40,221 bases of DNA, taken from NCBI RefSeq assembly GCF_900129125.1, contig NZ_FQVJ01000033.1:1-40221 (forward strand). Reading direction: 5' to 3'. The notes under the pieces are model-generated. The model saw only the letters and a list, made by a program, of their open reading frames with translations, had not been told where the DNA came from and made no database searches. The stretch is from Acidocella aminolytica 101 = DSM 11237. Lineage in GTDB: Bacteria; Pseudomonadota; Alphaproteobacteria; Acetobacterales; Acetobacteraceae. A program made the translations under genes and the position numbers. This document shows, in pieces, positions 147-23,248 of the stretch; position 1 is the stretch's first letter, and each line of letters opens with the position of its first letter.

Positions 147-1121
147 ATGCTGGATTTGATCCGCGAAAGCTGCGGCCTGACCGAGTTCCGGGACGTGGCC
201 GAGGAGGCACGGCGGTTTTTGGGGCTGGCGGCGGATGATCATGCTGTCGGCGACAAACTCTGTCACCATCACCATCACCATCACCATCACCTCCACCCTC
301 AAGGCCATCTGCCGAGTTTGTCGGGTGCTTGTGCCGTCCCCAAGCCGCAGGTGGATGATGGTGGTGATGCAGCTCCTGACGCCGCCCAGGCCCAGCGCGC
401 CGCACGGCGGTTGTTCGGCATGGCGCAGCCGCTCTCGGGCACCCTTGCTGAAACCTATTTGAACAGGCGCGGCATCACGGCGGCGGCACTTATTGGCATT
501 GGCGCGTTACGTTTCCATCCGCGCTGTTTCTACCGCGCGACTCCCGATGCACCGCCAGAACCCTGGCCCGCTTTGATCGCGGCGGTGACGGACCTCGAGG
601 GCACCATCACCGGTATCCAGCGCACCTGGCTTGATCCTGACGGGTTTGATCCGCTCGATCCCATCCGGCTGGGCAAGGCACCGCTGGCAGTTCCACGCCG
701 GGCGCTGGGGCTGCTGCTTGGTCATGCCGTGCGGTTCGGCACCACGGCAGGGCTGGAAAGCGGCCCGGAGCATGGCTTGCTCGCGGCGGGCGAAGGCATT
801 GAAACTGTGCTGTCGCTGCGCTGCGTGCTGCCCGTCATGCCAATAGTGGCCGCACTCTCGGCCGGGCATTTGGCCGCTCTTTTACTCCCCACTGGACTAC
901 GCCGGCTCTATATCGCCCGCGATGCCGATGCGGCCGGTGACCGCGCCGTGGCAAGTTTGACCGGACGCGCAATTGCCGCCGGGGTCGAGGCGATCCCGCT
1001 CTCGCCCCGCCTGGGGGATTTCAACGATGACCTCCGCGAACTTGGCCTCGCTGAATTGCGGGCACATCTGCGGGTGCAACTGGCGCCGGAGGATGCACAC
1101 CGCTTCATGGCGTGCGGCTGA
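147..1121 (+). CDS. Toprim-domain primase-like protein (DUF7146 type), N-terminally truncated
   Basis: The C-terminal half carries the toprim signature: an acidic GEGIET motif, the DxD of ARDADAAGD, and a GDFNDDL stretch. This fold binds Mg2+ in DnaG-type primases. The middle (RFHPRCFYR, TDLEGTITGIQRTWLDPDG, GKAPLAVPRR) matches the DUF7146/toprim proteins common on alphaproteobacterial plasmids, where they are thought to prime or process plasmid DNA. Family members normally begin with a CHC2-type zinc-binding domain of about 80-100 residues. That domain is missing here: the frame is open only from base 81, has no start before 147, and family-like sequence (DAAEGTHGDMLDLIRE) begins at about 118, where a palindrome ends. 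The ATG at 147 is therefore inside the ancestral gene. There is no clear ribosome binding site, and the product may be non-functional. An odd run of nine histidines sits at residues 40-48. Confidence 0.8.
   Translation: MLDLIRESCGLTEFRDVAEEARRFLGLAADDHAVGDKLCHHHHHHHHHLHPQGHLPSLSGACAVPKPQVDDGGDAAPDAAQAQRAARRLFGMAQPLSGTLAETYLNRRGITAAALIGIGALRFHPRCFYRATPDAPPEPWPALIAAVTDLEGTITGIQRTWLDPDGFDPLDPIRLGKAPLAVPRRALGLLLGHAVRFGTTAGLESGPEHGLLAAGEGIETVLSLRCVLPVMPIVAALSAGHLAALLLPTGLRRLYIARDADAAGDRAVASLTGRAIAAGVEAIPLSPRLGDFNDDLRELGLAELRAHLRVQLAPEDAHRFMACG
264..290 (+). repeat. Hexanucleotide microsatellite (CACCAT) encoding His9
   Basis: Four and a half copies of CACCAT give nine consecutive histidine codons within the truncated primase-like gene, where related proteins have a variable proline/arginine-rich linker. 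A perfect 6-bp tandem repeat can change copy number by slippage without shifting the frame. It may be harmless linker drift in a gene no longer under selection. Confidence 0.85.
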
Positions 1122-8764: not shown

Positions 8765-8767
8765 GGA

Positions 8768-9010: not shown

Positions 9011-9034
9011 GGCGGCCTCCGGGTGGTGCGGTGA

Positions 9035-9045: not shown

Positions 9046-9146
9046 CATATTTAGGGCTGTGTGCGGGGATGGGCAAGGGTAATGTTCCGGGCGGCTGCTC
9101 AGTACGCGCTGCTGGCAGGCGGAGCTGGAGGTTATTGGACGGGTGC

Positions 9147-9794
9147 TCAAGGCGAGGCGGGGGATATCGGGTCGGTCCAGACCGGCATGAAGCAGTAGTG
9201 ACGGCCATCGGCGTCTTGCTGCATGGATTTGCGGCAGGCGGCCAGGGCGGTGGCGCCGTCGTTATCCTGCATCAGCTGCCCCCAGGCGATTGCCTCGGCC
9301 GGGCTGGCTTTCATGGCGGCGGGGATGATGTGTGCGGCGATTTCGGCCTGAAACCGGCCGTCATTCAGTCCGGCGGCATAGGTGAACAGGCTGGGCACCA
9401 GGATGGCCAGGGCCAATGCCAGACCCAGGGCCACGATGCTGCGGATGCGCAGGGTGGTGATTTTTAGCCGCATGGCGCGGTCGGCGGCATTGGCCAGTTG
9501 CGGGGCAAGCTGCTTGACGATGTCCATGCCCGAGGCGTGCACCCGCTCGATGGCTTCATTCGCGATGGCGTCGGTTTGGGTTTTCAGGGTGTTGGCAATG
9601 TCGATCTGGGTCGCCTCGCTGGCCTGGTAGAGGTCACTCAGCGCGCCGACGCACACGGCCAGTGCCTGGAGTTGCTCGGCCAGAGGGTCACTTTTCAGGG
9701 CGGCGGCCGCGGCGGCGCGGCGCAGGACCGTCTGGGCCTCGGCGATCTGCTCGTGCAGGGCTTCGCGGCGGGCGGCGGGGCTTATGGGATCCAT
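9147..9794 (-). CDS. Membrane protein of the mobilisation operon (TraM-like position)
   Basis: A 215-residue protein that I cannot assign to a named family. Residues 1-110 are helical and Ala/Gln-rich (AEAQTVLRRAAAAAALKSDPLAEQL and following), with likely coiled coil. One strong membrane helix, IVALGLALALAILVPSLFTYAAGL, lies at about residues 118-141, and a soluble tail with a Cys pair follows (AACRKS, HYCFMP). The start overlaps the end of the upstream ParA-like gene by 13 bp, so the two are coupled. It is the third gene after a DNA-binding protein and a ParA-like ATPase, the same order as traK-traL-traM beside oriT in RP4. A role in relaxosome anchoring at the membrane is inference from order only. 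Confidence 0.7.
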   Translation of the reverse strand: MDPISPAARREALHEQIAEAQTVLRRAAAAAALKSDPLAEQLQALAVCVGALSDLYQASEATQIDIANTLKTQTDAIANEAIERVHASGMDIVKQLAPQLANAADRAMRLKITTLRIRSIVALGLALALAILVPSLFTYAAGLNDGRFQAEIAAHIIPAAMKASPAEAIAWGQLMQDNDGATALAACRKSMQQDADGRHYCFMPVWTDPISPASP

Positions 9795-10663
9795 GATCTG
9801 ATGCCCGCAAAACGATGATCCATGGCGTCGAGCCAGACGCGCACCCGGGCGGCGTCAAACAGACCGAGCGGCGGAGTGATGGTGCCATCGCGCGCGGCGG
9901 CGAAGCTGCATTGCCGGCTTTCCACGGCCTCGGCGGCGTGCAGCCGGGGCATCCAGAGCTTCACGCAGTCGGCGGCCAAATTGCCATAAGCGGTGGAGGT
10001 TGTGATGCGGGCAAAGGCGCGCTCACGGGTCGAGCCGGGCTCAATGCCGTATTCGTTGAGCACCAGGGCTTGCGCTGTTGGGGTAAAACCGCGGGCGGCC
10101 AAAGTGAGGGCAGGGAGCAGATCCTCGGGCTGCGGTCCGGTGAGATGGAACATCACCGGCGCCATGCCGGCGGCCTCAATATGGGTCGCCAGGCCCGGCA
10201 TTTCGGTGGCAAGGGAGCGCAGGGTGGTGTCGCCGCCACCCAGGTCGATGAGGGCGGAGTGCCGTTCGGTGATGCAATACTCGATCAGTCCCTGCAGCCA
10301 GGTGGCGACCCCGGCGGGGTTGTCCGTATCCGGGCGGGCGACGTCGGCGAAATAGGCAGAGAAGGTGGCGTTGCTGGGATCGACATCGGCCAGGATCGGC
10401 GCACCGCCATTGCGGATGGAGGTTTCGGTGAGCCAGCGGAGCAGGGTGGTCTTGCCGGTTTTGCCACGTCCGGCGGCGAAGATGATTTTAGCGCGACCGG
10501 TGAGGTCGATGCCCTGCTCGATGTCGGGCTCGGACTCCTTGGGTGGCGCCAGACTGATGATGTTGGCGCGCGGGCCAGTGAATTTTGTGGCGCTGGGGCG
10601 ATAGGGCGTGGCGCCGGATGGCTTAGTTGGAGTGGTGGGCGTTTGTGGTTTGTCCTCGGGCAT
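9782..10663 (-). CDS. ParA/MinD-like ATPase of the mobilisation operon (TraL-like)
   Basis: A 293-residue protein with a disordered, Pro/Thr-rich N-terminus (residues 1-45) followed by a deviant Walker A, GRGKTGKTT, at 65-73. The extra lysine K68 is typical of ParA/MinD/SIMIBI ATPases. ADVDPSNATFSAYF and IDLGGGDTTL look like the following switch regions. The start codon overlaps the upstream stop as TGATG, showing translational coupling. In RP4, traL encodes a comparable ParA-like ATPase between traK and traM near oriT; its exact function is not settled. Partition of the element would be the other reading, but no parB-type partner is adjacent. Confidence 0.78.
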   Translation of the reverse strand: MPEDKPQTPTTPTKPSGATPYRPSATKFTGPRANIISLAPPKESEPDIEQGIDLTGRAKIIFAAGRGKTGKTTLLRWLTETSIRNGGAPILADVDPSNATFSAYFADVARPDTDNPAGVATWLQGLIEYCITERHSALIDLGGGDTTLRSLATEMPGLATHIEAAGMAPVMFHLTGPQPEDLLPALTLAARGFTPTAQALVLNEYGIEPGSTRERAFARITTSTAYGNLAADCVKLWMPRLHAAEAVESRQCSFAAARDGTITPPLGLFDAARVRVWLDAMDHRFAGIRSWIP

Positions 10664-11184
10664 CAGCTTGGCTCCTTGGGTTCAGATGGGCTGAATGTCT
10701 GGCGGTGGCTGCGTGCGATGTCCGCCGGGGTGGATTCACTTGGCGCGGGTGATGTTTCCTGGATGCGGAATGAGGCAGGCTTGAAGCGGGGCGCAGCAGC
10801 AACCGCTGGGCTGGGTGCCGGTGGTGGAGTTGGCGGCAGGTCCGTTTGAGCAACTGCTCCGGGCGGCATGGCAGTTTGCGCCGTTGGCAGTGCTTCGGAT
10901 TTTGGCCGCCGTTGTCGGTAGCCTTTGAGGGGCATCAACGCACGAGACAGCTCGCTGCGCAGCCTCTTGTCGGTCCAGGGCGTGCCGGTTCGATAAGTGA
11001 TGCCGAGCTTGGTCAGCGCTGCGCCGATCGCAGCCCAGGATGAGTCGCCATGCACAAGCGAGCGCAGCAGCTCATGATGCTGACGCAGCCACGGGCGCAT
11101 AATATCGCCTTGCCGCCAGAGCGGACGGAAGATTTCAGCCAGGGCTTCAATGTCTGCTTCGGTTGGTCTGCGCTTGAGCGACAT
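10663..11184 (-). CDS. TraK-like oriT/DNA-binding protein
   Basis: A 173-residue basic protein. The first ~95 residues hold a helix-turn-helix-like segment, SSWAAIGAALTKLGITYRTG followed by PWTDKRLRSELSRALMPLKG, the pattern seen in TraK-type proteins that bind next to nic. The C-terminal half is Pro/Ala-rich and probably disordered. It is the first gene of a three-gene minus-strand unit. The upstream 450 bp contain a 19-bp near-palindrome shared with the luxI promoter, a 12-bp tandem repeat and further palindromes, so this protein may bind there and the operon may be quorum controlled. The TraK assignment is by motif and gene order and needs a profile search. Confidence 0.65.
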   Translation of the reverse strand: MSLKRRPTEADIEALAEIFRPLWRQGDIMRPWLRQHHELLRSLVHGDSSWAAIGAALTKLGITYRTGTPWTDKRLRSELSRALMPLKGYRQRRPKSEALPTAQTAMPPGAVAQTDLPPTPPPAPSPAVAAAPRFKPASFRIQETSPAPSESTPADIARSHRQTFSPSEPKEPS

Positions 11185-11235: not shown

Positions 11236-11254
11236 GCAATCTTCCGAATCGGAA
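11236..11254 (-). promoter_or_regulatory. Candidate LuxR-binding box of the mobilisation operon
   Basis: GCAATCTTCCGAATCGGAA on the plus strand contains the dyad TTCCGA-A-TCGGAA. The identical 19 bp occur in the opposite orientation at 12534-12552 before luxI, so each copy reads TTCCGATTCGGAAGATTGC towards its own gene. Here it ends 51 bp before the start of the TraK-like gene. With a LuxR/LuxI pair between the two copies, a tra/lux-box role is the simplest explanation. Confidence 0.7.
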
Positions 11255-11271
11255 GTAGGGGAAGGCGGATT

Positions 11272-11367
11272 GCTCAACCGCTGGTGCAATCAATAGCTCA
11301 TTGGCTAGCTCAATCGCTATCTCATTGGCCTGCTCAATGGCTGGCGCAAAGGCTGGCTCTAATCTCG
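11272..11367. repeat. Tandem 12-bp repeat array, about seven to eight degenerate units
   Basis: Units begin at 11272, 11284, 11296, 11308, 11320, 11332, 11344 and less clearly 11356, in exact 12-bp register. Examples are GCTCAACCGCTG, GCTCATTGGCTA, GCTCAATCGCTA and GCTCAATGGCTG, giving a consensus near GCTCAATGGCTG. The array lies 18 bp beyond the candidate lux box, upstream of the mobilisation operon. Iteron-like binding sites for the TraK-like protein or a part of oriT are likely roles. No gene with a start signal covers it, so a coding repeat is unlikely. Confidence 0.7.
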
Positions 11368-11628
11368 TTGGTCTGGTGTGGTATCGGATTACGTTTCTAC
11401 AACAGACCAAGGAATGCTAGCGCATGCGAGAGCGGTAGTATCAGGAGCGTCACGCGGGGATGTTTGCTGCTAAAATCACGTGGCGGTGACCGCCAATGTT
11501 GATGAAATGCCCGTGTAAAACAGTGGCTATTAATTGTCGTCAAACATTACCGATATTTCAATTTACGCAAGCATTCGTAGCACGGTAGTGCAATTTGGGG
11601 TTGTTTCCATGTAACCGGAAAGCTTGGG
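11368..11628. other. Palindrome-rich region upstream of luxR, candidate oriT
   Basis: TTGGTCTG (11368-11375) and CAGACCAA (11403-11410) form an 8-bp inverted repeat 27 bp apart, starting where the 12-bp array ends. TGGCGGT-G-ACCGCCA (11481-11495) is a perfect 15-bp palindrome. The rest, to luxR, is AT-richer and probably holds its promoter. Conjugative origins usually carry inverted repeats beside binding sites for accessory proteins and lie next to the gene for such a protein, as here. A nic site cannot be named by eye. Confidence 0.4.
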
Positions 11629-12366
11629 ATGATTGCCGGATCGGATGATGGCTACGAAGAGATTGTCACCCAGATTGGCGAGGCCACCAGCCTTGCGGCC
11701 ATGCAGGATATCGCTGGCAATATTTGCAAGTTCTATCATCTGGCGAATATTGCGTATCACGCGGTTTATATTCCCGGCGCGAAGATGTTCAATCCGATTT
11801 TAGTTTTGACTTACGATCCAAGCTGGGTCGCGCGCTATAAAGACAACGACTACTTCAGAATCGATCCGGTGGTTGTTTGCGGTACAAAGAGTTTTTTGCC
11901 GTTGGATTGGATGAAGCTCGACCGAGAAAATGCCGTGGCGCGGGGGTTTTTCGCGGAAGCTGACCGGTTTGATGTTGGCCGGCAGGGTATAACGCTACCG
12001 GTGCGCGGGACTGGGGGCGAACGGGCGTTGTTTACCGTCACCGCCAATATGTCGATGAGAGAATGGGAACAGCGCCGGGCAGGCTATATGAAAGAGTTCC
12101 AGATGATCGGGCATTACATGCATGATCGGATTGTCGAGCTCTCGGGTTATCGGGATACCGCACCCAAGCCAGCGTTATCGCCGCGCGAGATGACATGCCT
12201 GGAGTTTGCGGCAAGCGGTGCGACTGTGAAGCAGATCGCGGCAAGTTTGTGCATTACGGACCGGGCTGTTCGTTTGTTTCTGACATCCGGCTGCGCCAAG
12301 CTCAATTGTGCCACGATCCCGCAGGCGATTGCCAAGACGGTCTCACGCGAAATGCTGCGCCCGTAA
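11629..12366 (+). CDS. LuxR-family acyl-homoserine-lactone-responsive regulator
   Basis: A 245-residue two-domain regulator of typical length. The N-terminal autoinducer-binding domain keeps the key pocket residues W66 and Y70 in WVARY, D79-P80 in FRIDPVV, and W94 in LDWMK, matching the W, Y, D and W of TraR. The last ~65 residues are a LuxR helix-turn-helix: LSPREMTCLEFAASG, then TVKQIAASLCITDRAV, then KLNCATIPQAI. Ligand-bound proteins of this family dimerise and bind lux-box dyads. It sits between two copies of a 19-bp dyad and 300 bp before luxI. It most likely activates the mobilisation and secretion operons, although repressor-type LuxR proteins also exist. Confidence 0.92.
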   Translation: MIAGSDDGYEEIVTQIGEATSLAAMQDIAGNICKFYHLANIAYHAVYIPGAKMFNPILVLTYDPSWVARYKDNDYFRIDPVVVCGTKSFLPLDWMKLDRENAVARGFFAEADRFDVGRQGITLPVRGTGGERALFTVTANMSMREWEQRRAGYMKEFQMIGHYMHDRIVELSGYRDTAPKPALSPREMTCLEFAASGATVKQIAASLCITDRAVRLFLTSGCAKLNCATIPQAIAKTVSREMLRP

Positions 12367-12425
12367 GCGGGTAGAGAGCGCATTACGAAGCCCACACAAA
12401 CAAATCTCAATCGACTGAAGCAACC

Positions 12426-12450
12426 GCCCTGTCATCTTATGTGGCAGGGC
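12426..12450 (+). terminator. Hairpin after luxR
   Basis: GCCCTGTCA (12426-12434) pairs with TGGCAGGGC (12442-12450) through nine pairs including one G-U, with a 7-base loop, 60 bp after the luxR stop. It is followed by ATTTG rather than a long T run. It would separate luxR transcription from the luxI promoter that follows. Confidence 0.5.
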
Positions 12451-12533
12451 ATTTGCGTCGTCCGGCGCGTAGAGCACGGCCGAAATCCAGACAAAACTTG
12501 TAATTGATGCGCGATTGAGGGGGTCTGTCAAGA

Positions 12534-12552
12534 TTCCGATTCGGAAGATTGC
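12534..12552 (+). promoter_or_regulatory. Candidate LuxR-binding box of the luxI-virB operon
   Basis: TTCCGATTCGGAAGATTGC is identical over 19 bp to the complement of 11236-11254. Its dyad is centred at 12540. A lux box centred near -42 would put the start of transcription near 12582, and TGTAAACAT at 12571 could serve as the -10 region. luxI starts 120 bp downstream of the box. The shared sequence and the same orientation towards the controlled gene make a common LuxR site likely. Confidence 0.72.
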
Positions 12553-12672
12553 GGCCTGAATCATCCAGCTTGTAAACATGAATCCGCTGCGCCGGAGACG
12601 CTCAAATCTTTCCCGCAGCCGGCGCTGATATTTTGTTGGCCATGATGTTTCAAGAACTGAAACGGAGCACAA

Positions 12673-13287
12673 ATGATCATAACTTTGAGTCAGGATGACA
12701 GGATCGAGCATCCCGCATTATTCGACCAGATGTTTCAGTCCCGCGCGGCGGTATTTCATGACCGTCTGGGGTGGGATGTGCTGGTCAAAGACGGCCATGA
12801 GGTTGATCGCTACGATGAAGAGGCTGATCCGGTCTATCTCCTTGCGGTCGATGAGCATCAGCAAGTGCAGGGTTCCTTGCGCTTATTGGCGACCACCGGG
12901 CCGACGATGCTGCGAAGCGAGTTCAGGTATTTTTTCGATGATGACGTGGACGTGATGGCCCCCACGATTTGGGAATGCACGCGGTTTTGCGTGCCGCCGG
13001 TTCTGGACAGGACCGAACAGGATTTGGGCATTGTTTCCGCTGAATTGCTGATTGGCCTGTGTGAGCTTTGTCTCGCGTCGGGCATCGAATTTGTTGTTGG
13101 TGTTTACGACACACCGATGACGCGCATCTATGCGCGGATCGGTTGGTGCCCGGAGGTTTTGGCGCGGGCACGGCCGGAGATTGGAAATATAACCGCTGGT
13201 ATCTGGGAGGCGACGCCGGCGGCACTGTCAATCATGCGTCAACGCCTGTCCGCCCGGTTGCGCGGGCGGCCGGTCCTGGTGACGTAA
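12673..13287 (+). CDS. LuxI-family acyl-homoserine-lactone synthase
   Basis: A 204-residue autoinducer synthase that makes an N-acyl-homoserine lactone from S-adenosylmethionine and an acylated carrier protein. The residues invariant in the family are in the expected places: R24 and F28 (RAAVFHDR), W34 (LGWDV), E43-D45-D48 (HEVDRYD), R70 (GSLRLL), F84, and E101-R104 (WECTRF). The start has a CGGAG 5 bases upstream. The next gene, virB1, begins on the base immediately after the stop, so luxI is the first gene of the secretion operon, as traI is of the Ti-plasmid trb operon. This would give positive feedback if LuxR acts at 12534-12552. The acyl chain cannot be predicted from sequence. Confidence 0.95.
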   Translation: MIITLSQDDRIEHPALFDQMFQSRAAVFHDRLGWDVLVKDGHEVDRYDEEADPVYLLAVDEHQQVQGSLRLLATTGPTMLRSEFRYFFDDDVDVMAPTIWECTRFCVPPVLDRTEQDLGIVSAELLIGLCELCLASGIEFVVGVYDTPMTRIYARIGWCPEVLARARPEIGNITAGIWEATPAALSIMRQRLSARLRGRPVLVT

Positions 13288-14049
13288 ATGGCCGCGCGGC
13301 GGGAAAGGTTGCGCGGCTATCGCCTCGCCGGTGTGCTGCTCGGACTGACCACGATCAGCCCGCCACCGGTCTTTGCTGCGAGCCTATCGGATGCGGATTT
13401 TGCCACGCTCGCGGCCCGATGCGCGCCAGGGGTGCCGGTATGGGTTCTGCGCGGTGTTGCCCGCACGGAGAGCGATTTTCATCCATGGATGCTGCACGAT
13501 AACAGCACTCATGCCAGTGCCAGCCCGGCGAGCCTGGCCAACGCCGAGGCTCAGGCGACCGCATGGATCGCCGCGGGGCATTCGGTCGATCTTGGCCTGA
13601 TGCAGATCAACAGCGCCAACCTGCCCGCGCTGGGGATGACGGTCGGCGCGGCGCTTGATCCGTGCGCGTCATTGGCGGGCGGTGCGGCAGTGCTGCGGGC
13701 CGCTTACGGCACAGCCCCAGTTCGCACCGGGCAGCAGGCCGCCTTGCTCATGGCGTTGTCGATCTACAATACCGGCTCACCGCTCAAAGGGATCATGAAC
13801 GGCTATGCAAGGCGGGTGATGCGCCATGCGGATGAGGCGGCGTCGGGCCTTCCCGTGCCGCCGCTACCGCCCGCTAACGAGCCCGTCATGCCGCCCGCTT
13901 GGGATGTTTCGGCCACCGGCAGTTACGCGCGGAACCATGGCGCGCCCTGGCTGGTGCCGCTGGGGCTGGATGTCGCCGAGCGAAGCAATGCCGCGGCCGC
14001 TGAGGTCGATTCCCAACTCCAAACGATGAGGTCGCCATGGTCGACATGA
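13288..14049 (+). CDS. virB1: VirB1-like lytic transglycosylase
   Basis: A 253-residue exported SLT-fold enzyme that opens peptidoglycan for assembly of the type IV secretion channel. A signal peptide spans about residues 1-31 (cut near VFAAS). The catalytic glutamate is E61 in ARTESDFHP, followed by DLGLMQINSANL and ALSIYNTGSP, the usual lysozyme-like motifs. The C-terminal tail is proline-rich. Its ATG directly follows the luxI stop codon, and its end overlaps virB2 by 13 bp, so it is part of one long operon. Confidence 0.9.
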   Translation: MAARRERLRGYRLAGVLLGLTTISPPPVFAASLSDADFATLAARCAPGVPVWVLRGVARTESDFHPWMLHDNSTHASASPASLANAEAQATAWIAAGHSVDLGLMQINSANLPALGMTVGAALDPCASLAGGAAVLRAAYGTAPVRTGQQAALLMALSIYNTGSPLKGIMNGYARRVMRHADEAASGLPVPPLPPANEPVMPPAWDVSATGSYARNHGAPWLVPLGLDVAERSNAAAAEVDSQLQTMRSPWST

Positions 14050-14399
14050 TCGCCCCGATGCTTCTTGCACAGGCGCAGATGTTTCGCCTGACCAGATTAT
14101 GGTCCGTGGCCGCCCGAGCGTGGCCCATGACGTTGCTGGCGGTCATGCTGGGGCTTCCGGCATTTGCCTACGCCCAGACCGTTTCTGGCGGGGCCAGCCC
14201 GCAGACGATGATCAATAATGTCTGCACCTTCATCCTGGGGCCGTTTGGTGAGACGATCGCCGTGCTCGGGATTATCGGCATCGGGTTTCTGTTCATGTTC
14301 GGCAGGGCGTCGCTGGGGGTTATTGCGGGCATTATCGGCGGCATCGTCATCATGTTTGGCGCTTCCTATCTCGGCCAGACCCTGACCGGGGGCGGCTGA
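14037..14399 (+). CDS. virB2: VirB2-like pilin
   Basis: A 120-residue prepilin. A long leader ends near AFAYA-Q (cut after residue 46), leaving a mature pilin of about 74 residues with two membrane helices (ETIAVLGIIGIGFLFMFG and LGVIAGIIGGIVIMFGASYL), the normal VirB2/TrbC shape. Mature subunits polymerise into the conjugative pilus. The start overlaps virB1; the Met at residue 4 is an alternative. Its leader is longer than usual, so the true start may also lie further in, for example at residue 15 or 31. Confidence 0.9.
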   Translation: MVDMIAPMLLAQAQMFRLTRLWSVAARAWPMTLLAVMLGLPAFAYAQTVSGGASPQTMINNVCTFILGPFGETIAVLGIIGIGFLFMFGRASLGVIAGIIGGIVIMFGASYLGQTLTGGG

Positions 14400-14400
14400 G

Positions 14401-14736
14401 ATGGAGCCCCTTGAGGCCGACACGCTGTATCTCGCGGCGACAAGGCCCGCGATGTTCATGGGCGTGCCGCTGAGTCTGGGGGCGATGTTGCTCATGCTGG
14501 CCGGGCTGATCGTCGTGATCTTCAAGAACCCGCTTTATTTGATGGTCATGGCGCCGCTCTGGCTGGCGGCTCGGGAGTTGGTGGCGCGGGATTATAACGC
14601 CGTCGGTGTTGTGCTGCTGTATTTGCGTACCGCTGGCCGGTCAGTTGATGGCAAGAGATGGGGTGGGGCCTCGGTGTCGCCGGCACCGGTCCGTGGCCGC
14701 GCTCGTTACCGGGGGATGCGTGATGTGGGGGGATAG
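14401..14736 (+). CDS. virB3: VirB3-like inner-membrane protein
   Basis: A 111-residue protein with the VirB3 signature: a short cytoplasmic start (YLAATRPAMFMGVPL), two close membrane helices at about 22-41 and 45-59, and KNPLYLMVMAP between them. It joins VirB4 at the inner membrane in the secretion complex. The start follows the virB2 stop by one base. The Arg/Gly-rich C-terminus from about residue 78 lies in an overlap with the virB4 leader and may be poorly conserved. Fusion to VirB4 is seen in some relatives but not here. Confidence 0.88.
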   Translation: MEPLEADTLYLAATRPAMFMGVPLSLGAMLLMLAGLIVVIFKNPLYLMVMAPLWLAARELVARDYNAVGVVLLYLRTAGRSVDGKRWGGASVSPAPVRGRARYRGMRDVGG

Positions 14737-17113
14737 CGCCCGCGCTGAGCGCGCCGCCACGCAATATTTGCCCTATGTCGGCCATATCGGGCCTCAAACC
14801 GTGCTGCTGGAAAGCGGGGCGCTGCTGGCGATGGGCCATGTTGAGGGCCAGGCGTTCGAGCTGGCAGACCATGCGCTGCGCAATGCAAGGCTGCGGCTGC
14901 TCAACACGACCTATCGCAATCTCGCCGATGACAATGTCACCATCCATACGCATCTCATCCGCCATGCCGATCTGGGGGCAACACCTACCCGCCGGTTCCG
15001 CTCCGGCTTTGCCCACGCACTGGATGAAACCTATCGGAACAAGGTGCTCGCGGGTCGGCTGTACCGAAATGATTATTTTATCAGCCTGCTGATTTCACCG
15101 CGCAGCCCGCTTGGCTCGGGCATGGCCAGAAAATGGGCGCGGCTCGGGCGTAAATCCCCGGAAGCAGCGGATGGGCTGGTGCGAGAGTTAGAGGACCAAT
15201 GGCTTGTTTTGGCCAATGGGCTGGAAGGGTTCAGAGTCCGGCGCCTTGGTGTGTATGAGCGGGACGGGATCGCCTTCTCGGAAATCGCCGAGGCGTTGCG
15301 CCTTATTATCACCGGCAGGCCGCTGCCGGTGCCGGTTGTCTCCGGGCATCTGGGTGATTCGATTTACACTGATCGCGTCATTTGCGGGCGGCGGGGGATA
15401 GAAATCCGCGCGCCGGATAAGAGCTTGTTCGGGACGATTTTCTCCTTTCGGGAATATCCGGCGAAAACGAGGCCGGGCATGCTGAACACGCTGCTCTCCG
15501 TGCCGTTCCCTATCGTGCTGGCGCAATCCTTCGCCTTTGTCACCCGCGCCCAGGCGCAGGACCGGCTTTCTTTGAAATCCGCTCAGATGCTTGGCGCGCA
15601 GGACAAGGCGGTTAGCCAGATCGCCGGGCTGGAGGAAGCGGCGGATGCCCTGGCGTCCAATGAATTCGTCATGGGCGCGCATCACCTCTCGCTGGCGGTC
15701 TATGGGGATTCGCTGGCGGCAGTGGAGGAGCACGCTGGCCGGGCCAGGGGGCGGTTGGCCGACGCGGGGGCCGTTGTGGTTGAGGAGCGGCTGGGGCTGG
15801 AGGCGGCCTTCTGGTCGCAACTCCCGGGTAATCTGGAATGGCGCACGCGGCCCGGGGCTATCAATTCCCGGAATTTTGCTGGGCTGTCGAGCTTTGATAA
15901 TTTCCCAGCAGGAGAAGAGCGCGGACATTGGGGTGCTGCTATCGCGCGCTTCCGCACGGATGGTGGCACAGCCTATGACTACGTGCCGCATGTTGCCGAT
16001 GTTGCGATGACGATCATCTTCGGTCCCATAGGCTCGGGCAAGACCGCGCTGCTGATGTTTCTGCTGGCGATGTTCGAGCAATCGATGGTGGAGGAGAATA
16101 CCCCATCCGGCCGTGCCGGTTCGGTGGTGTTTTTCGATAAGGACCGGGGTGGGGAATTGCTGGTGCGCGCCACGGGCGGCACTTACCTCGAATTGCGCCG
16201 TGGTGAGGCGTCAGGGTTGGCACCGTTGTGTGGGCTGAAGGACACCGAGGCGGATCGGGATTTTCTGCGGGGCTGGCTGATCGCTCTGGTGCAAAGCGAC
16301 GGCAAGGGCGGGCTGAATCCGGAGGATGAGAAGCGCCTGGAGCGTGCCATCACCCGGCAGATGAGCATGCCCGAAGAGTTGCGTTCGCTGGCTGGATTGC
16401 GGGAATTCCTCGGCCATGCCGATCCGATGGGGCTGGGTCCTCGCCTCGAGAAATGGTGCCGGGGCAATGCGCTGGGCTGGGCATTCGATGGGGAGCGCGA
16501 CGAGGTGCGGCTCGATGGCGCGATCACCGGCGTCGATATGACCCAGCTGCTCGAACATGACGAGGTTTGCGCGCCGGCCGGGGCTTATCTGCTCTATCGT
16601 GTGACACAAATCCTCGATGGGCGACGCGTCGTGCTGAGTATCGATGAATTCCGCTTCTACCTTAAAAACCCGCAATTTGTCACCGTGGTCGATAATCTGT
16701 TGCTCACCGTGCGCAAGAGCAATGGCGCGGTGTTTCTGGCGTTGCAGATGCCCGAGCATATTCTGGAGAGCCCGCTGGGGCCGTCGATCGTGGCGCAATG
16801 TCAGACCAAGATCATGTTCCCATCGCCGACGGCGGACCGCGCGGTTTATATTGACGGCCTCAAATGCACTGAAGGGGAATATAGCGCGGTGCGCGAAGAG
16901 ATGGCGGTCGGCAAGCGCCGCTTCCTGCTCAAGCGCGAGCAGGCCAGTGTTATTTGCGAATTCGATCTTGGCCAGATGCGCGATGATGTCGCTATACTTT
17001 CCGGCCGGGCGAATACCGTGCGCTTTGCCGAACGACTGCGCCGCCAGCTGGGCGATGAGCCAGACAAATGGCTGCCGGAATTTTTGAGATCCTACCATGA
17101 CGCCAAGGACTGA
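14723..17113 (+). CDS. virB4: VirB4-like secretion ATPase
   Basis: A 796-residue ATPase that powers pilus assembly and substrate transfer at the inner membrane. Walker A is GPIGSGKTA at about 434-442 and Walker B VVLSIDEFRF with the acidic pair at 641-642. QYLPYVGHIGPQTVLLESGALLAM near the start and RSKDRLSL-type helical segments match the CagE/TrbE/VirB4 N-domain. The ATG at 14723 is chosen over one at 14606 because family similarity begins there and it has a G-rich site upstream; it overlaps virB3 by 14 bp. The length fits the family. Confidence 0.93.
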   Translation: MWGDSARAERAATQYLPYVGHIGPQTVLLESGALLAMGHVEGQAFELADHALRNARLRLLNTTYRNLADDNVTIHTHLIRHADLGATPTRRFRSGFAHALDETYRNKVLAGRLYRNDYFISLLISPRSPLGSGMARKWARLGRKSPEAADGLVRELEDQWLVLANGLEGFRVRRLGVYERDGIAFSEIAEALRLIITGRPLPVPVVSGHLGDSIYTDRVICGRRGIEIRAPDKSLFGTIFSFREYPAKTRPGMLNTLLSVPFPIVLAQSFAFVTRAQAQDRLSLKSAQMLGAQDKAVSQIAGLEEAADALASNEFVMGAHHLSLAVYGDSLAAVEEHAGRARGRLADAGAVVVEERLGLEAAFWSQLPGNLEWRTRPGAINSRNFAGLSSFDNFPAGEERGHWGAAIARFRTDGGTAYDYVPHVADVAMTIIFGPIGSGKTALLMFLLAMFEQSMVEENTPSGRAGSVVFFDKDRGGELLVRATGGTYLELRRGEASGLAPLCGLKDTEADRDFLRGWLIALVQSDGKGGLNPEDEKRLERAITRQMSMPEELRSLAGLREFLGHADPMGLGPRLEKWCRGNALGWAFDGERDEVRLDGAITGVDMTQLLEHDEVCAPAGAYLLYRVTQILDGRRVVLSIDEFRFYLKNPQFVTVVDNLLLTVRKSNGAVFLALQMPEHILESPLGPSIVAQCQTKIMFPSPTADRAVYIDGLKCTEGEYSAVREEMAVGKRRFLLKREQASVICEFDLGQMRDDVAILSGRANTVRFAERLRRQLGDEPDKWLPEFLRSYHDAKD

Positions 17114-17125
17114 GAGGAGGACATC

Positions 17126-17851
17126 ATGAAACCAGCCCTGTTTACAATTGTTGTTCTGTGCGCCGGGGGGGCTTTAACACTGTGCGTGGTGTCAGATGCA
17201 GCCGCGCAAATGGCGGTGATCGACAGTGCTAATCTGGGGCAGAATATCCAAACCGCGGCGCAGTCGGTCATCGCGGTCGAGCAGCTCAAGGCGCAATTGT
17301 CCCAGCTTGAGCAGACCTATCAGATGTTCACCAACCCCACCAATGTCTTGGGCATGGCGGCTGGAATGGAGAACCAGTCCATCGAAAACCCGATGCCCAT
17401 GGCGAACGCGATGGCGGGGCTGGTCGGAGGAGCCGCCGCGCCGTCCGGTGCGGCGGCAAGTTATTATAACCAGAACCATGTTTATGCACCAACGGATGGT
17501 TCGGCCGCGAGTGCGCAGTTGAATGCCAATGGCAATGCCATTGCGAATATCGAAGGCATCGCATCTACGAATCTCGCCGCGATTCAACAGCGTATGCAGG
17601 ATTTGCCGAATTTGGAATCGGATTTGAACGCTGCCACCTCGATCACCCAGGTCGATGCGATCAATGGCCGCATCGCGGCGGAATCGCAATTCGTGCAGGC
17701 GCAGCAAGCACAGGCGCAGAATCTTCAGGTGCTGGCAAGCGAGCAGGCATTGTCGCAGCAACAGCAGCAGAAGGAGCAGTTCGTCGAGGATATGACCAAT
17801 GCCTCTTCGGACTACAGCCAGGCAGCTGCCGCCGATAATACAGGACAATAG
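17126..17851 (+). CDS. virB5: VirB5/TrbJ-like minor pilus protein
   Basis: A 241-residue exported protein. The signal peptide is cut near DAAAQ (about residue 28). The mature part is helical, with IQTAAQSVIAVEQLKAQLSQLEQTYQMF matching VirB5/TrbJ and a Gln-rich stretch (LSQQQQQKEQF) near the end. VirB5 caps the pilus tip and helps adhesion to the recipient. A strong AGGAGG precedes the start. A Gly/Ala-rich insert at about 95-115 is unlike the rest. Position between virB4 and eexN-virB6 agrees with the assignment. Confidence 0.87.
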   Translation: MKPALFTIVVLCAGGALTLCVVSDAAAQMAVIDSANLGQNIQTAAQSVIAVEQLKAQLSQLEQTYQMFTNPTNVLGMAAGMENQSIENPMPMANAMAGLVGGAAAPSGAAASYYNQNHVYAPTDGSAASAQLNANGNAIANIEGIASTNLAAIQQRMQDLPNLESDLNAATSITQVDAINGRIAAESQFVQAQQAQAQNLQVLASEQALSQQQQQKEQFVEDMTNASSDYSQAAAADNTGQ

Positions 17852-17853
17852 CC

Positions 17854-18207
17854 ATGTTAAAATCCCAGATTATAATGGGTTCATTGATCATCATAGGTGG
17901 CTGCGGCGCACTTTATCTCGTTGTCGATAACAGCCATTCTGGTCGTTCAACTGGTTCTTCAAGCACTGAAATAAGCCCGGTGAACTTGCCGCCTGAAGTG
18001 CACTCGGCGGCGTGGTATGTTCGCCATCCAGATGTTCTGAAGCAGGATGAGCGGCGCTGTGCCGGAAATACCGAAATGATGACGCCGGCCGCATGTCAGA
18101 ACGTGGCCTCGGCGGATGCGCAGCTGGCGGGCGCGGATTATGCGAAGGCTGCAGCGGCATTCAATGCATCAGCAGGACAATCGAACTCCAACCAGAAACC
18201 TCCATGA
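17854..18207 (+). CDS. eexN: EexN-like entry-exclusion lipoprotein
   Basis: A 117-residue protein. A short hydrophobic leader ends in IGGC (Cys17), an approximate lipobox. The core HSAAWYVRHPDVLKQDERRC, then AACQNVASADA, has the pattern of EexN lipoproteins, with a conserved W/Y-HP start, two cysteines and a helical end. EexN in the recipient blocks uptake of a like plasmid. It lies between virB5 and virB6, as eex does in IncN plasmids. It starts a stretch, with virB6 and virB7, that is clearly AT-richer than the rest of the operon. Confidence 0.75.
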   Translation: MLKSQIIMGSLIIIGGCGALYLVVDNSHSGRSTGSSSTEISPVNLPPEVHSAAWYVRHPDVLKQDERRCAGNTEMMTPAACQNVASADAQLAGADYAKAAAAFNASAGQSNSNQKPP

Positions 18208-18215
18208 GGTGAGTG

Positions 18216-19136
18216 ATGGCAAGCGCAAGCAATCTTGATCCGTTCTATGTGTTTGATCAAACGATCCAACAGCCATTTACGAATGGAATGACGGCCACTG
18301 TGAATGCCGCGATGTCGGCGATACAGGGGCCGCTCACTGCAATTATAGTGTTGTGGATTTTATTGACGGGTATACTCGTGATGCGGGGAGATGTCGGAGT
18401 CCGGACCGGCATTTCGAGGATCATATCGGTCAGTCTGGTGGTTGGTATCTTGATGTCCGCAACACTCTATAATGAGTATATCGTATCATTCTTTTCAAGC
18501 GGTATTCCAAACTGGCTTTCATCGGCGTTTTTGGGTGTCACAGGCGCACAGCCCACGGCCCATCAATTTGATGCGATCTGGAATGAAGCCAATGAGCTAT
18601 TTGTGACCGCAGAAAGGAACTTGAACTTCTACAATGTTCTGTATTCTGTAGAGCTTGGTCTTTTGCAGGATCTGATCGTTTTTCCAATCGGCATCACCTT
18701 CCTCATTTATGAGGCAACCAGGATCATGATCGATGTTATTGTCTCGATCGGTCCTTTTGTCTTGGCCGGTTATCTATTTTCCGCGACCAGGGGGATAGCT
18801 GATCGGTTTATTGGTAAGCTGATCGGTCTGACAATTCTCACGCTGCTTATCGATATCGTGTTGAGCATCATCATCAACGGTGACGCGGCATATTTCAATG
18901 TGAGCATGACAAATCTAAGTTTCGCGAATACGGCGGAAACGGTCACCATCTGCATCCAGTTCTTGGTTTTTCTGACGCTGGGCAGTTTAATCTGTGCCTT
19001 TTTACCGGCTGTGGCGAGTTATCTCGGTGGTGGTGTTGCCGTCAGCCCGTTGAGTATGGCGTCGTCAGCGATGCAGGCGGGGCGTGTGGTGCAAATGGTT
19101 CGCGGTAGCGGACGGCCAGTTCCGGGGAGAGCGTAG
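18216..19136 (+). CDS. virB6: VirB6/TrbL-like polytopic membrane protein
   Basis: A 306-residue protein with five to six membrane helices (for example PLTAIIVLWILLTGILVM, ISVSLVVGILMSATLY, LQDLIVFPIGITFLIYEA, LIGLTILTLLIDIVLSIII, IQFLVFLTLGSLICAFL), the TrbL/VirB6 layout. It forms part of the inner-membrane path of the channel. The ATG at 18216 is preferred to the GTG at 18213 because GAGGTGAG precedes it. Composition is low in GC (26 of 60 in 18661-18720) compared with virB4 (41 of 60 in 15601-15660). Confidence 0.88.
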   Translation: MASASNLDPFYVFDQTIQQPFTNGMTATVNAAMSAIQGPLTAIIVLWILLTGILVMRGDVGVRTGISRIISVSLVVGILMSATLYNEYIVSFFSSGIPNWLSSAFLGVTGAQPTAHQFDAIWNEANELFVTAERNLNFYNVLYSVELGLLQDLIVFPIGITFLIYEATRIMIDVIVSIGPFVLAGYLFSATRGIADRFIGKLIGLTILTLLIDIVLSIIINGDAAYFNVSMTNLSFANTAETVTICIQFLVFLTLGSLICAFLPAVASYLGGGVAVSPLSMASSAMQAGRVVQMVRGSGRPVPGRA

Positions 19137-19433
19137 ATGTACAATTTTATGATTATCTCAGCAAATAATCTGATTCACCTTCCACTCTTGCTCATTCTGG
19201 TTTGGGTTGTCTATCGGAAATTTTTCTCGAAAAAGCCGCTTCCCGCGATATTGACGGTTCCTGGGCGGTTATTTCGATTTCTACTGATCATCATCACCGT
19301 CGGGCTTCTCGCCGGATGCTCTAATCCCGATCCTCTTGTCGTGGCGTCCGGTCCGGTCTTTGCGCTGAATGCGGGGCACTGGCAGCCAACGCCGCAGGAT
19401 TTGGCAGCCCCTCCCAAAGTTGCGGACCGGTAG
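19137..19433 (+). CDS. virB7: VirB7-like lipoprotein with an N-terminal extension
   Basis: A 98-residue protein. The last 38 residues look like a VirB7 family lipoprotein: lipobox LLAGC with Cys61, then GPVFALNAGHWQPTP, the motif with which VirB7 binds VirB9 and VirB10. Before the lipobox, an extra membrane helix (HLPLLLILVWVVYRKFF) occupies residues 14-30, so the frame is about twice the normal VirB7 length. Translation from an internal start would give the usual short prolipoprotein, but no ATG lies between residue 5 and the second helix. The ATG at 19137 directly follows the virB6 stop, which supports the long form. Confidence 0.75.
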   Translation: MYNFMIISANNLIHLPLLLILVWVVYRKFFSKKPLPAILTVPGRLFRFLLIIITVGLLAGCSNPDPLVVASGPVFALNAGHWQPTPQDLAAPPKVADR

Positions 19434-19439
19434 GGCGTG

Positions 19440-20132
19440 ATGGATCAGAACTCCGGCACATTCCCGCTCGCGCCCGCTACGCTTGATAAGCATTACAAGG
19501 AGGTTTTGTCGTTTCAGGAAGCGCGAGCGCGCTCGGCCCGGCTGCTCTCCAAAGGCGCGCTGGTGGCGTTCGCTGTTTCCATGCTCGCCAATCTGGGGCT
19601 GGCATGGGCGGTGGCCTCGATGTTGCCATTGAACAAATTGGTGCCGGTGTATTTTCTCATTCGCCCGGATGGCACGATCGATAATTCAGTCGCGCTTTCA
19701 ACCTTGCCGGCCTCCACGCATCAAGCGGTGATCCGCGCGGCCCTCTGGCAATATGTGCAGATGCGCGAAGGTTATTCCTATGATACCGCTCGCTACCGCT
19801 ATGACATCGTCTCCGGCATGTCGGATGCCGCGACAAGAGCCGCCTATCAGGCGTGGTTCAATTATCCCAACCCGCAATCCCCGCAGGTGACCATCGGCAA
19901 GAATGGCGTCGTGACCGTGGAGCCGATTTCGGTGGCGCTGATCGGCCCCGGCGTGGCGCAAGTGCGTTACCAGCGGATCTTTGAGGCGGGCATGAATACC
20001 GCTGTTACGACCACCTGGACCGCAACGGAGCAATTCGAGCAGGTCGGTACCATGCCTGATGCCGAACGGCTGGACGATCCTGGAGGTATCATCATTACCA
20101 GCTATCAGGACGAGGAGGATACAGCGCCATGA
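19440..20132 (+). CDS. virB8: VirB8-like inner-membrane scaffold protein
   Basis: A 230-residue bitopic protein with a short cytoplasmic N-terminus (residues 1-40), one membrane helix at about 42-62, and a periplasmic NTF2-like domain (VPVYFLIRPDGTI, YVQMREGYSYDTARYRYDIVSGMSD, VAQVRYQRIFEAG). VirB8 organises the secretion complex in the periplasm. The ATG at 19440 is favoured over the GTG at 19437. Its end overlaps virB9 by 4 bp (ATGA). Confidence 0.92.
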   Translation: MDQNSGTFPLAPATLDKHYKEVLSFQEARARSARLLSKGALVAFAVSMLANLGLAWAVASMLPLNKLVPVYFLIRPDGTIDNSVALSTLPASTHQAVIRAALWQYVQMREGYSYDTARYRYDIVSGMSDAATRAAYQAWFNYPNPQSPQVTIGKNGVVTVEPISVALIGPGVAQVRYQRIFEAGMNTAVTTTWTATEQFEQVGTMPDAERLDDPGGIIITSYQDEEDTAP

Positions 20133-21055
20133 GACGAGCTTTTGCGCTGGTGCTCGTGGTTGGTGTGGGAAGTATAGTGATGGCGCGCGGCGCCGATGCT
20201 GATCAGACGCCGGATGCGGGCCATTATGACAGCCGAATGCGCTATGTCGCTTACAACCCGAGCCAGGTTGTGCATTTATCGACGATCATAGGCGCGACGA
20301 TGGTGGTGAGCTTCGCGCCGGATGAGACGGTAACCTCGGTGGCGGAGACGGACAGCCTGCACTTGGCCGCCGTGCCAAAGGGCAATTACCTGTTCCTCAA
20401 GCCCAGCGCCGCGCTCAAATTGCAGCCGATCATCGTGCTCACCCAGCGCCAGGATGGTGCGCTCAGACGCTATGTCTTCGAGATCGAGACCGTAGACGCC
20501 CCGAGCACGGCGGATGGGGCGGCGGGTATATTCTATTCGGTGCAATTCACCTATCCGGCGGATGCGGCCAAAGCGGCGGCGGCGCGTGCAGCTGCCGATG
20601 CCAAAAAGGTGGCGGCGCTCAACCGGCTGGCTTTGGCGCGGGCGACGCAAACCGCCGCACAGTCAGCACTTCAGAATGAGCAGACCAACCCTTATGCCGG
20701 GCCGCGCAATTACAAATATGTTGCCAAAGGAGACCGCTCGCTGGCGCCCTTAGCAGTGTGGGATAATGGCTACTCCACGCTGCTGCAATTTGCAGGCAAC
20801 GCCCGCATCCCATCGATCTTCGTGATTGACCCGGATGGGAAGGAGGCCACGGCCAGCTACGCAGTCAGCGGCTATATCGTGCAGCTCGACCAAACCGCAC
20901 GGGAATGGCGCCTGCGCGATGGCGGCACGGTCCTGGATATTTACAATCTCGGCTACCAGTCGGTGGGTGGTAATCCTGAGACCGGGACGACCAGCCCGGA
21001 TGTGTCGCGCGTTGTCGTGCCGCCGGGTAGCAGCTTGCCGGGAGCTAAGCCATGA
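20129..21055 (+). CDS. virB9: VirB9/TrbG-like outer-membrane complex protein
   Basis: A 308-residue exported protein. The signal peptide is cut near GADAD (about residue 25). [22 protein letters not shown] is the usual VirB9 N-terminal strand, and the C-terminal domain ([52 protein letters not shown]) is the beta-sandwich that contacts VirB7 and VirB10. A helical Ala-rich linker lies at about 150-185. It overlaps both neighbours by 4 bp, as expected in a tightly coupled operon. Confidence 0.93.
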
Positions 21056-22218
21056 GCGGGCAAGCGCCCAACGGGCCGGAGGTAGGGAGCCGGAGCGATC
21101 AGGCGGCAGCCTCGCCGGTGGAGGATGGCCGTTCGCCCGTTGCAGGCACGCCGCGCCGTGAGCTGACCACCGGCACCAAACTCGGCATTCTGGCGCTGGT
21201 GGCGGTTTTGGGGCTGGGCTTCATCTGGTTCAATGCGCTGTTCAGCCATACGCGGGCGGACCAGCAAAAAATAATTCCAGCGGCATATACGAATGGCGGC
21301 GAAATTTTTAACGGTCCGCCGGTCTCGGCCATGAAGCCCGCCGCGCAAAATTTGCCAGCGCCCGCCAATACACAAACGGGATTGTTGGACGCACCCGCGC
21401 AAGCCTCGCCCGCCGCGGCGCCGATCCTGGCCTTCTCCGGATCATCGGTGCCGGTTCCCAACCAGCCGCCTGCCTCGAGCGTCAGTCAGCCGGGCGCCAC
21501 GGCAGCGGCGGTGATGCCGGATAATTCCCCCTTGGCGGCGCGGTTGAAGCCCACGGTGCTCGATGGCGAACGGGCCTCGGTGCTGCAAAATCCCGACATG
21601 GTGATCACCGAAGGCACGATGATCCCCTGCACCCTTCAAACGGCCATCGACAGCCAGTTGCCCGGGCTGGTGACGTGTGTGGTGCCGATCGATGTTCGCG
21701 GGTCGACCGGGAATGTCGTTCTGCTCGATCGCGGCACAAAAATTGTCGGCCAAATGGAGAACGGTCTCTTGCAAGGCCAGAACCGGGTGTTCGTTGATTG
21801 GACCCGTGCAGAGACGCCGGATCATGTCATTGTTACACTGGATTCGCCGGGTTCCGACGAGCTCGGGCGAGCGGGCTTACCGGGCGCGGTCAACAACCAT
21901 TTTTGGGACCGGTTCGGCGGGGCGTTAATGCTGACCCTGGTGCAAGGCGGGCTGCAGGCAGGAACCCTGGCGGCGGCGGGGAATGGCAACGGTAATTCGA
22001 CGTCGCAGCAGGCGGCACTCGGCTTTGTGTATGCCGCGCAGAGCAATGGGCAGTCGGTTGCCAACACCGCCCTGGCAAACTCCATCAACATTCCGCCGAC
22101 GCTGACCAAGAACCAGGGCGATACAGTGTCGCTGATCGTGGCGCATGATCTGGATTTTTCCAGCGTGTACCGGTTGCGGCTGGATGATACGGGCGCGGAG
22201 ACGGGCAATGGCGGGTGA
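21052..22218 (+). CDS. virB10: VirB10/TrbI-like channel protein
   Basis: A 388-residue protein spanning both membranes of the complex. A membrane helix lies at about 43-65 ([20 protein letters not shown]) after a cytoplasmic tail, followed by a Pro/Ala-rich periplasmic linker to about 165. The TrbI domain then begins with [19 protein letters not shown] and continues through [23 protein letters not shown]. VirB10 senses ATP use by VirB4/VirB11/VirD4 and gates the outer pore. The end overlaps virB11 by 11 bp. Confidence 0.94.
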
Positions 22219-23248
22219 GGCGGCGCGCTTACTGACATTTTTACTCCGGCCGCTGGCGTCCTGGCTGGATGATCCCGCCACGGAAGAGATTTGCATCAAT
22301 CGGCCGGGCGAGTTGTTTGTCCGCCAGCGCGGTCAGTTCCGTGCGGAAGCCGTGCCGCTCGATTATGCCGGCCTCGAGGATATCGCCACCCTGGCCGGCG
22401 CGCTGCGTAAGCAGGATGTCGGACCGCGTAGCCCGCTATGTGCTACCGAATTGCCAGGCGGGGAGCGGCTGCAAATCTGCATGCCGCCCGCCGTTCCGGC
22501 TGGTACGCTCAGCATCACCATCCGCAAGCCGGGAGGCTCGGTGGCACCGCTCGACTCGCTGGTAAGCCGTTACCAGGTGGCGGGCTGGAATAACTGGGCC
22601 AGCCGCAAAGAGGCAGCGCAGCGGGACTTTGCCGCCTTGCTCGCCCTGTATGATGCAGGGGACATCAAAACCTTTTTGGAGCGCGCGGTGCAGGCGCGGC
22701 TCACCATTCTGCTCTGCGGTGCTACCGGCTCGGGCAAAACAACGATGAGTAAAACACTCATCAGCGCTATCCCGGCGCAGGAGCGGCTGATCACCATCGA
22801 GGACACGCTGGAGCTCGTCATCCCCCAGCCCAATCATGTCCGCCTGCTCTATGCCAAGGATAATATCGGCTTGGCACGGGTGACACCGGAGATGTTATTG
22901 CAAGCCAGCCTGCGCATGAAGCCAGATCGGATCTTGTTGCAGGAGCTGCGTGATGACGCGGCCTGGACCTACATCAATGAAATCGTTTCTGGTCATCCCG
23001 GCTCGATTACCACCATCCATGGGCGTAATCCCGAGCAGGCGTTCAGGCGGTTGTTTGCGCTGGTGAAGGGTAGCCCGCAGGGCGGGAGGTGGGATGACAA
23101 GACGCTGATGGAGTTTTTATCCGCCGCCGTTGATCTGATCATTCCATTCCATAATGAGGGCGCGGTCTATGAGATCGGCGAGGTGTGGTTTGCGGCCGAT
23201 GCTGCGCGCCGGGGTGAGAGTGCTGCGCATTTGTTGCGGGCGGCATGA
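22208..23248 (+). CDS. virB11: VirB11-like secretion ATPase
   Basis: A 346-residue hexameric traffic ATPase. Walker A is GATGSGKT at 171-178; TIEDTLEL (Asp box), [19 protein letters not shown] (Walker B region) and [12 protein letters not shown] (His box) follow in the usual order. The N-terminal domain has [20 protein letters not shown]. The start at 22208 fits family length; a start at 22145 would lie inside virB10 and adds foreign residues. It switches the machine between pilus building and DNA transfer. Confidence 0.94.

Follow-up and report, generated by a model that had tools for sequence, protein, structure and literature searches.

A 13-bp dyad flanking luxR as a likely operator for quorum control of transfer genes in Acidocella mobile elements

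Control of conjugation by LuxR-type proteins is known, and three described systems bear on the locus reported here. In the TraR/TraI system of the Agrobacterium Ti plasmid, a luxI-type gene heads the mating-pair operon and inverted-repeat operators precede several transfer operons; the available text of one account puts the distance of class II tra boxes from the transcription start at about 45 nt and reports that no box was detected in the traR promoter (PMC3907764). TraR-TraI1 quorum sensing by AHL governs the integrative elements ICEMlSym R7A and ICEMcSym1271, and, in the available part of that report, the reads of ICEMcSym1271 start 44 bp past the centre of the tra box (PMC5882170). In excerpts of a third paper, the lux box of Vibrio fischeri is an inverted repeat of 20 bp with its centre 42.5 bp ahead of the transcription start (PMC3376562). 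The control proposed here for the locus would resemble that by TraR and its tra boxes, with another recognition site, and would share AHL quorum sensing with the ICEMlSym system. The locus differs from the Ti system, as described in the same excerpts, which has tra boxes of 18 bp, mating-pair genes of the trb and not the virB type, and a repABC plasmid, and from ICEMlSym, where the boxes serve traI1 and the traI2-msi172-msi171 operon leading to excision, whereas here they precede luxI-virB, oriT-side and primase genes. A lux box of 20 bp is also even-centred, in contrast to the odd-centred core that we find.

The window, by which we mean the whole 40,221-bp stretch of Acidocella aminolytica DNA that was analysed, contains the following features.

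147..1121, plus strand: DUF7146/Toprim_3 primase-type gene, 5' part absent from the contig
9147..10663, minus strand: rest of the minus-strand operon (next two lines)
9147-9794, minus strand: 215-aa protein, no family
9782-10663, minus strand: P-loop protein, only a CLP1_P match, below cut-off
10663..11184, minus strand: first gene of the minus-strand operon (the oriT-side gene), 173 aa, no family, helical N-terminal part predicted
11236..11254, minus strand: dyad 1, 19-mer, core TTCCGATTCGGAA (11242-11254) facing the 10663-11184 gene and 57 bp from its start codon
11294..11422, no strand assigned: putative oriT, between dyad 1 and luxR, with three 12-bp direct repeats at 11294-11329
11365-11386/11392-11413: imperfect inverted repeat of the putative oriT
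11402-11422: conserved block of the putative oriT, ACAGACCAAGGAATGCTAGCG
11629..12366, plus strand: luxR, Autoind_bind 1.6e-27 and GerE 2.3e-10 (both above cut-offs)
12534..12552, plus strand: dyad 2, 19-mer, core at 12534-12546, 126 bp between core and luxI
12549..12578, plus strand: candidate luxI promoter, -35-like TTGCGG at 12549-12554, -10-like TGTAAA/TAAACA at 12571-12578
12673..13287, plus strand: luxI, AHL synthase, Autoind_synth 1.1e-35 (above cut-off), directly before the virB genes
13288..23248, plus strand: VirB-type T4SS genes by Pfam/NCBIfam (next ten lines)
13288-14049, plus strand: transglycosylase
14037-14399, plus strand: VirB2-like
14401-14736, plus strand: VirB3
14606-17113, plus strand: VirB4
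17126-17851, plus strand: VirB5-like, score below the NCBIfam cut-off
18213-19136, plus strand: a gene that we take to be VirB6-like, score below the NCBIfam cut-off
19437-20132, plus strand: VirB8
20129-21055, plus strand: VirB9
21052-22218, plus strand: VirB10
22145-23248, plus strand: VirB11-like
23252..25093, plus strand: T4SS coupling protein, T4SS-DNA_transf 9.1e-76
25726..29517, plus strand: TrwC-type relaxase with a helicase-like AAA domain, TrwC 7.4e-36 and AAA_30 6e-37, presumably of the MOBF kind

Pfam recognises a LuxR/LuxI quorum-sensing pair, with an AHL-binding domain and a GerE HTH in the one protein and an adjacent LuxI synthase. The best solved relative of this LuxR is 2q0o, a TraR (2.8e-13), and its score against the TraR equivalog model NF010444 is 53 bits, below the cut-off of 250. 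The segment 11294-11422 is likely to be an oriT, judging from its repeats and conserved block. The gene at 10663-11184 had initially been called TraK-like, a label that we do not retain: the 173-aa protein has no match in Pfam, NCBIfam or PHROG, and none in Foldseek at E 0.001 or better.

The 19-mer GCAATCTTCCGAATCGGAA lies at 11236-11254 on the plus strand and recurs as its exact reverse complement at 12534-12552, as the initial annotation had reported, and these are the only two copies in the window at up to 3 mismatches (0.02 expected from 100 shuffles). No separated inverted repeat in the window is longer than this pair. That annotation had held chance to be very unlikely. The length of 19 bp is by itself modest evidence, because one of 40 order-1 Markov simulations reached at least 19 bp (the longest repeat did not exceed 17 bp in 37 of them and measured 18 bp in two and 20 bp in one); the repeat is nonetheless secure, because related loci, too, have its 13-bp core to either side of luxR. 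This was seen wherever LuxR is at least 70% identical and the contig is long enough, with one mismatch in one luxI-side copy.

Comparison of the copies reduces the proposed 19-bp recognition unit to this 13-bp core, TTCCGATTCGGAA, which is symmetric except for its central base, T, so that its axis passes through a base. The asymmetric GATTGC flank, once taken as part of the site, is not required, since the gene-proximal flank reads GATTGC, GTTGAA, TCTTG or GATAGC in different copies. The outer arms also vary between elements. At the luxI-side site of a second contig of the same genome, C45, the dyad extends to 23 bp, CAAGATTCCGATTCGGAATCTTG, again symmetric except for the central base, and dyad 2 of the window also matches a looser 23-bp frame, CAANNTTCNNNNNNNGAANNTTG, at 12529-12551. 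In 39 of the 40 classified sites the central T is oriented towards the gene, the exception being on contig C1 of genome G068. No dyad lies directly before luxR.

The sequences of the tra box and of the lux box differ from that of the core. The dyad is thus unlike both, as had been proposed, also in having a single central base where the 18-bp and 20-bp boxes are even-centred.

In the source genome assembly (3,964,820 bp) the exact core occurs only five times: the window and C45 each have two copies, and a third contig, C85, has one near its end. C45 represents a second element; its LuxR is 74% and its LuxI 75% identical to the window's proteins, and its dyads also flank luxR; the spacing between the dyads is 1292 bp in the window, 1289 bp on C45 and 1313 bp in G068. 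The C85 dyad lies 101 bp upstream of the start of a Toprim primase-type gene. To the two targets first suggested, luxI and the oriT-side gene, this adds a third class before the primase-type gene; in the window itself this third dyad is missing because the primase gene at 147-1121 loses its 5' part at the contig edge. A common genome-wide repeat had been named as the finding that would speak against a regulatory site, and five exact cores in 3.96 Mb, all on three contigs of such elements, are not that.

Across 38 Acidocella genomes we counted 44 exact cores, compared with four matches of a reversed-control pattern and a uniform expectation of about 3.2. By automatic assignment, 16 of the 44 lie 57-65 bp upstream of the oriT-side gene, 13 lie 96-102 bp upstream of the primase gene and 11 lie 125-131 bp upstream of luxI; the remaining 4/44 meet contig ends and were placed by eye, twice at the primase gene and once each on the oriT and luxI sides. 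Close relatives of the window's LuxR come from Acidocella isolates (A. aquatica and Acidocella sp. KAb 2-4) or from metagenome bins, some of which are named Acidocella and others only to higher ranks. The luxI-side core is present in all 11 close-LuxR loci (10 exact, one with one mismatch) and the oriT-side core is exact in all nine with enough sequence, although these loci lie mostly on the same contigs as in the 38-genome set, so that the two sets are not independent. Among nine further primase loci, two close ones (77-100% identity) have a one-mismatch core, six distant ones (42-64%) have none and one had too little sequence. The search of related elements for the site next to luxI and transfer genes, called for at the outset, thus finds it across Acidocella in the form of the 13-bp core. 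On the window, genome and genus counts together, we reject chance or a genome-wide repeat as the origin of the dyads.

Presence of the core also follows that of luxR. Taking a match at E 1e-25 or better as presence of LuxR (10 of the 38 Acidocella genomes), the core is found in 10/10 genomes with LuxR and in 6/28 others (Fisher 1.7e-5, a value that counts genomes as independent and overstates the evidence). Part of this co-occurrence reflects shared descent, because luxR, luxI and dyad travel on one element.

We consider it likely that the dyads are operators through which the element's own LuxR-AHL activator controls a transfer regulon of three predicted operons. At high cell density, AHL made by LuxI would bind LuxR, and the LuxR-AHL dimer would bind TTCCGATTCGGAA and activate the luxI-virB-coupling protein-relaxase operon, the oriT-side operon and the primase operon; at luxI its place would be immediately ahead of the -35 region. 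Positive feedback is to be expected because luxI heads the largest gene block. Of the original proposal of a LuxR-family site controlling conjugation, the dyads bear out the position on both sides of luxR, towards two divergent transfer operons, and the link to luxR/luxI transfer elements, while binding by LuxR itself is a prediction. We stop at likely because there are cores without LuxR, because an odd centre is unusual for LuxR boxes and because of the shared descent. That promoter signals are clear on the luxI side alone also counts against this reading.

An unlikely alternative is that the dyad is the operator of a regulator other than LuxR, for instance a repressor made by the element, possibly the 173-aa protein, which would hold the three operons silent until released. 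Odd-centred dyads are common for other HTH families, the dyads persist without LuxR, and the predicted helical N-terminal part of the 173-aa protein could bind DNA. Against the 173-aa protein, cores occur in genomes G408, G469 and G471 without its gene (although the G408 contigs end before its expected place), and five loci with the gene and no luxR nearby lack the dyad: up to 2 mismatches were allowed, and the 0.6-1.3 kb upstream contained no core; this count leaves out the weak traK-like matches in G466, G460, G473:C70, G187:C4, G479:C61 and G479:C519. One further traK-like locus, G283:C91, had too little sequence for a dyad check. The gene is also less strongly associated with the core (13/18 genomes, Fisher 7e-4) than is luxR (10/10). 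Among the 30 window proteins scanned, the only regulators named by Pfam besides LuxR are a Phd antitoxin and a MerR on the cargo side, leaving the proteins of no family as candidates.

The surroundings of the luxI-side dyad bear on the direction of control. An alignment of 13 luxI-side rows shows TGTCAAGA, the core and a following TTG to be kept, the core having a single mismatch in one of the rows, and a -10-like element lies 24-26 bases after the core at the best -10 place in the scan; the -35 match is only the fourth best place in the same scan. The dyad centre would then lie about 43-45 bp before the transcription start, just upstream of the candidate -35, where class II tra boxes and the lux box are also centred. 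A consensus promoter scan of the window listed none at either dyad, and no sigma-70-like promoter stands out at the primase sites and only weakly so at the oriT-side sites. Sigma-70 promoters at all three dyad classes were considered and rejected, since the luxI side alone gives a convincing -10. Weak basal promoters are what activated genes would be expected to have, though this is not proof.

Some LuxR proteins, such as EsaR, are repressors released by AHL, and sequence alone does not separate an activator from a repressor. It is nevertheless improbable that LuxR represses from this dyad and is released by AHL, because the luxI-side core lies upstream of the candidate -35, some 43-45 bp before the likely start, which is the position of a class II activator, rather than over the -10. 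Least probable is that the repeats are remnants or recombination sites rather than operators, or chance: on the oriT side and ahead of the primase gene, elements do differ in the type of sequence upstream of the dyad, as though there were recombination in its vicinity, but the core stays constant while both flanks change, and three different gene contexts share it at narrow distances to their start codons.

Dyads without a neighbouring luxR were found at four oriT-side sites with enough adjoining sequence, each a dyad plus oriT-side gene: at 8132 of locus L098 (G068:C1), 3304 of L099 (G187:C20), 2292 of L100 (G187:C22) and 2214 of L116 (G478:C303). All three of these modules that were checked for it, L098, L099 and L100, contain the conserved block of the putative oriT. 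Of the three genomes concerned, two (G068 and G478) also have a luxR element on another contig. Six genomes have the core and no LuxR at the above threshold (G187 and G372, both 99% complete, and four of 81-97% completeness). In these, either LuxR was lost or missed, or the signal of another element is answered, or another protein reads the dyad.

A tentative extension of the LuxR-AHL activator model, possible though doubtful, is that a family of Acidocella mobile elements uses the dyad as a common code for responding to quorum signals. The luxR-less modules would be satellites that read the LuxR-AHL signal of a helper, which may be co-resident or newly arrived, and open for mobilisation with it. 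Separate mobile elements would be linked through quorum sensing if luxR-less modules do respond to a helper in this way. Two observations concern individual loci: the G068:C1 module adjoins type I restriction-like genes (by eye, from protein starts), and in L119 (G479:C396) luxR matches in two overlapping pieces (residues 1-183 and 179-245) and looks broken, or misread, with both dyads remaining.

A diverged regulator and dyad occur together in genome G468. Its contig C95 encodes a LuxR about 51% identical to that of the window, differing in the HTH as well, together with luxI and virB genes. Between luxR and luxI lies the dyad CAATCTTCTGTTTTAGAAGATTG, which is 23 bp long and has an odd centre and perfect 9-bp arms. 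Its distance to luxI is 46 bp from the end of the dyad and 51 bp from the core, compared with 125-131 bp for the core elsewhere. Within the 9.7 kb of this locus, the frame CAANNTTCNNNNNNNGAANNTTG, which was drawn after seeing the G468 site and is thus post hoc, has this dyad as its only exact match. A second dyad before the gene labelled traK-like in G468 was considered and dropped, the best upstream match to the locus's own core having 3/13 mismatches and the frame having no match there within 2 mismatches. Although counted among the 10 genomes with LuxR, G468 gives no support to a direct link between LuxR and the canonical core, because its LuxR is divergent and that core lies on another contig. 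That a LuxR reads the odd-centred site beside it is suggested by the diverged pair, not decisively so.

Among the matches listed, the closest named relatives in the plasmid collection are from Rhizobium, with LuxR 43-48% and LuxI 52-55% identical, and one of these LuxI proteins is annotated raiI-2. Excerpts of one paper describe raiI/raiR beside alanine-metabolism genes in a Rhizobium system of RaiI/RaiR type (PMC13133039). The Rhizobium loci that we read differ from the present one: luxI stands before luxR in three of five, and three annotated 5.5-kb stretches contain no transfer genes, with an alanine racemase beside two of them. None of the five has a core within 2 mismatches, or a frame match, before luxI. 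Locus L040 has a 2-mismatch match to the 23-bp frame away from luxI, and on a Rhizobium phaseoli plasmid a 2-mismatch core (L037, 2375-2387) lies upstream of a luxR 48% identical and may be chance. A one-mismatch frame match in G549, from another family (L134, 1545-1567), lies inside the 3' end of a luxR 36% identical, about 150 bp before luxI, and may reflect coding constraint. A palindrome search before luxI in 27 loci, some of them duplicates, found no dyad shared with LuxR relatives of 26-36% identity in the order, at a threshold of 8/9 pairs that would miss dyad 2, so that a shared dyad may still exist there; the other palindrome searches, including those of the Rhizobium and G468 loci, are likewise insensitive.

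In the accessible portion of the open-licence literature, the only match listed for the 13-mer core is an unrelated fungal transformation paper, and the matches listed for Acidocella quorum sensing, conjugative plasmids and LuxR/ICE/Acidiphilium include no description of this system; the part of PMC9040811 available to us does not mention Acidocella. Judged by these matches, the sequence of the operator, the odd centre and the set of targets all appear to be new. They provide an exact candidate for the operator through which a mobile element of acid-loving bacteria, in this window one with likely copper-handling genes, would come under quorum control, and the operator sequence lets candidate targets be listed directly. 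The odd-centred dyad, with the diverged LuxR/dyad pair, also offers a case for how LuxR-type proteins change their DNA site.

The element is likely to be an ICE whose tRNA/integrase and transfer genes lie on separate contigs, because C85 (L025) opens at 267-1954 with a tRNA-Met and, after it, a gene resembling an integrase (below the Pfam cut-off), and the 3' end of this tRNA is partly repeated, at 82% identity, at C45:53939-53983. The tRNA-Met and integrase-like gene are probably the left end of such an element. The 21-base block of the putative oriT does not vary among the window, C45, G068 and the modules L098-L100, which lack luxR, and has 3-4 changes in L128, L129, L131 and the G468 locus; none was found in L133. 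Sequence types of the oriT side and of the luxR side are mixed between elements (L030 and L032 compared with the window, C45 and G068), which suggests recombination between dyad 1 and luxR.

With G068 as reference, the window and C45 elements share one cut point in the primase gene. Both contigs begin about 118 bp upstream of that cut, with similar sequence (positions 1-120 of each) that includes the inverted repeat CTTATGTG/CACATAAG. On the minus strand of the window, a KAP-family NTPase (1356 aa) and a PIN/Phd toxin-antitoxin pair adjoin the oriT-side operon at 4057-9208, and at 31117-39860 the window carries likely copper-handling cargo, comprising multicopper oxidase, DUF411, DsbD-like, SCO1/SenC and MerR genes.
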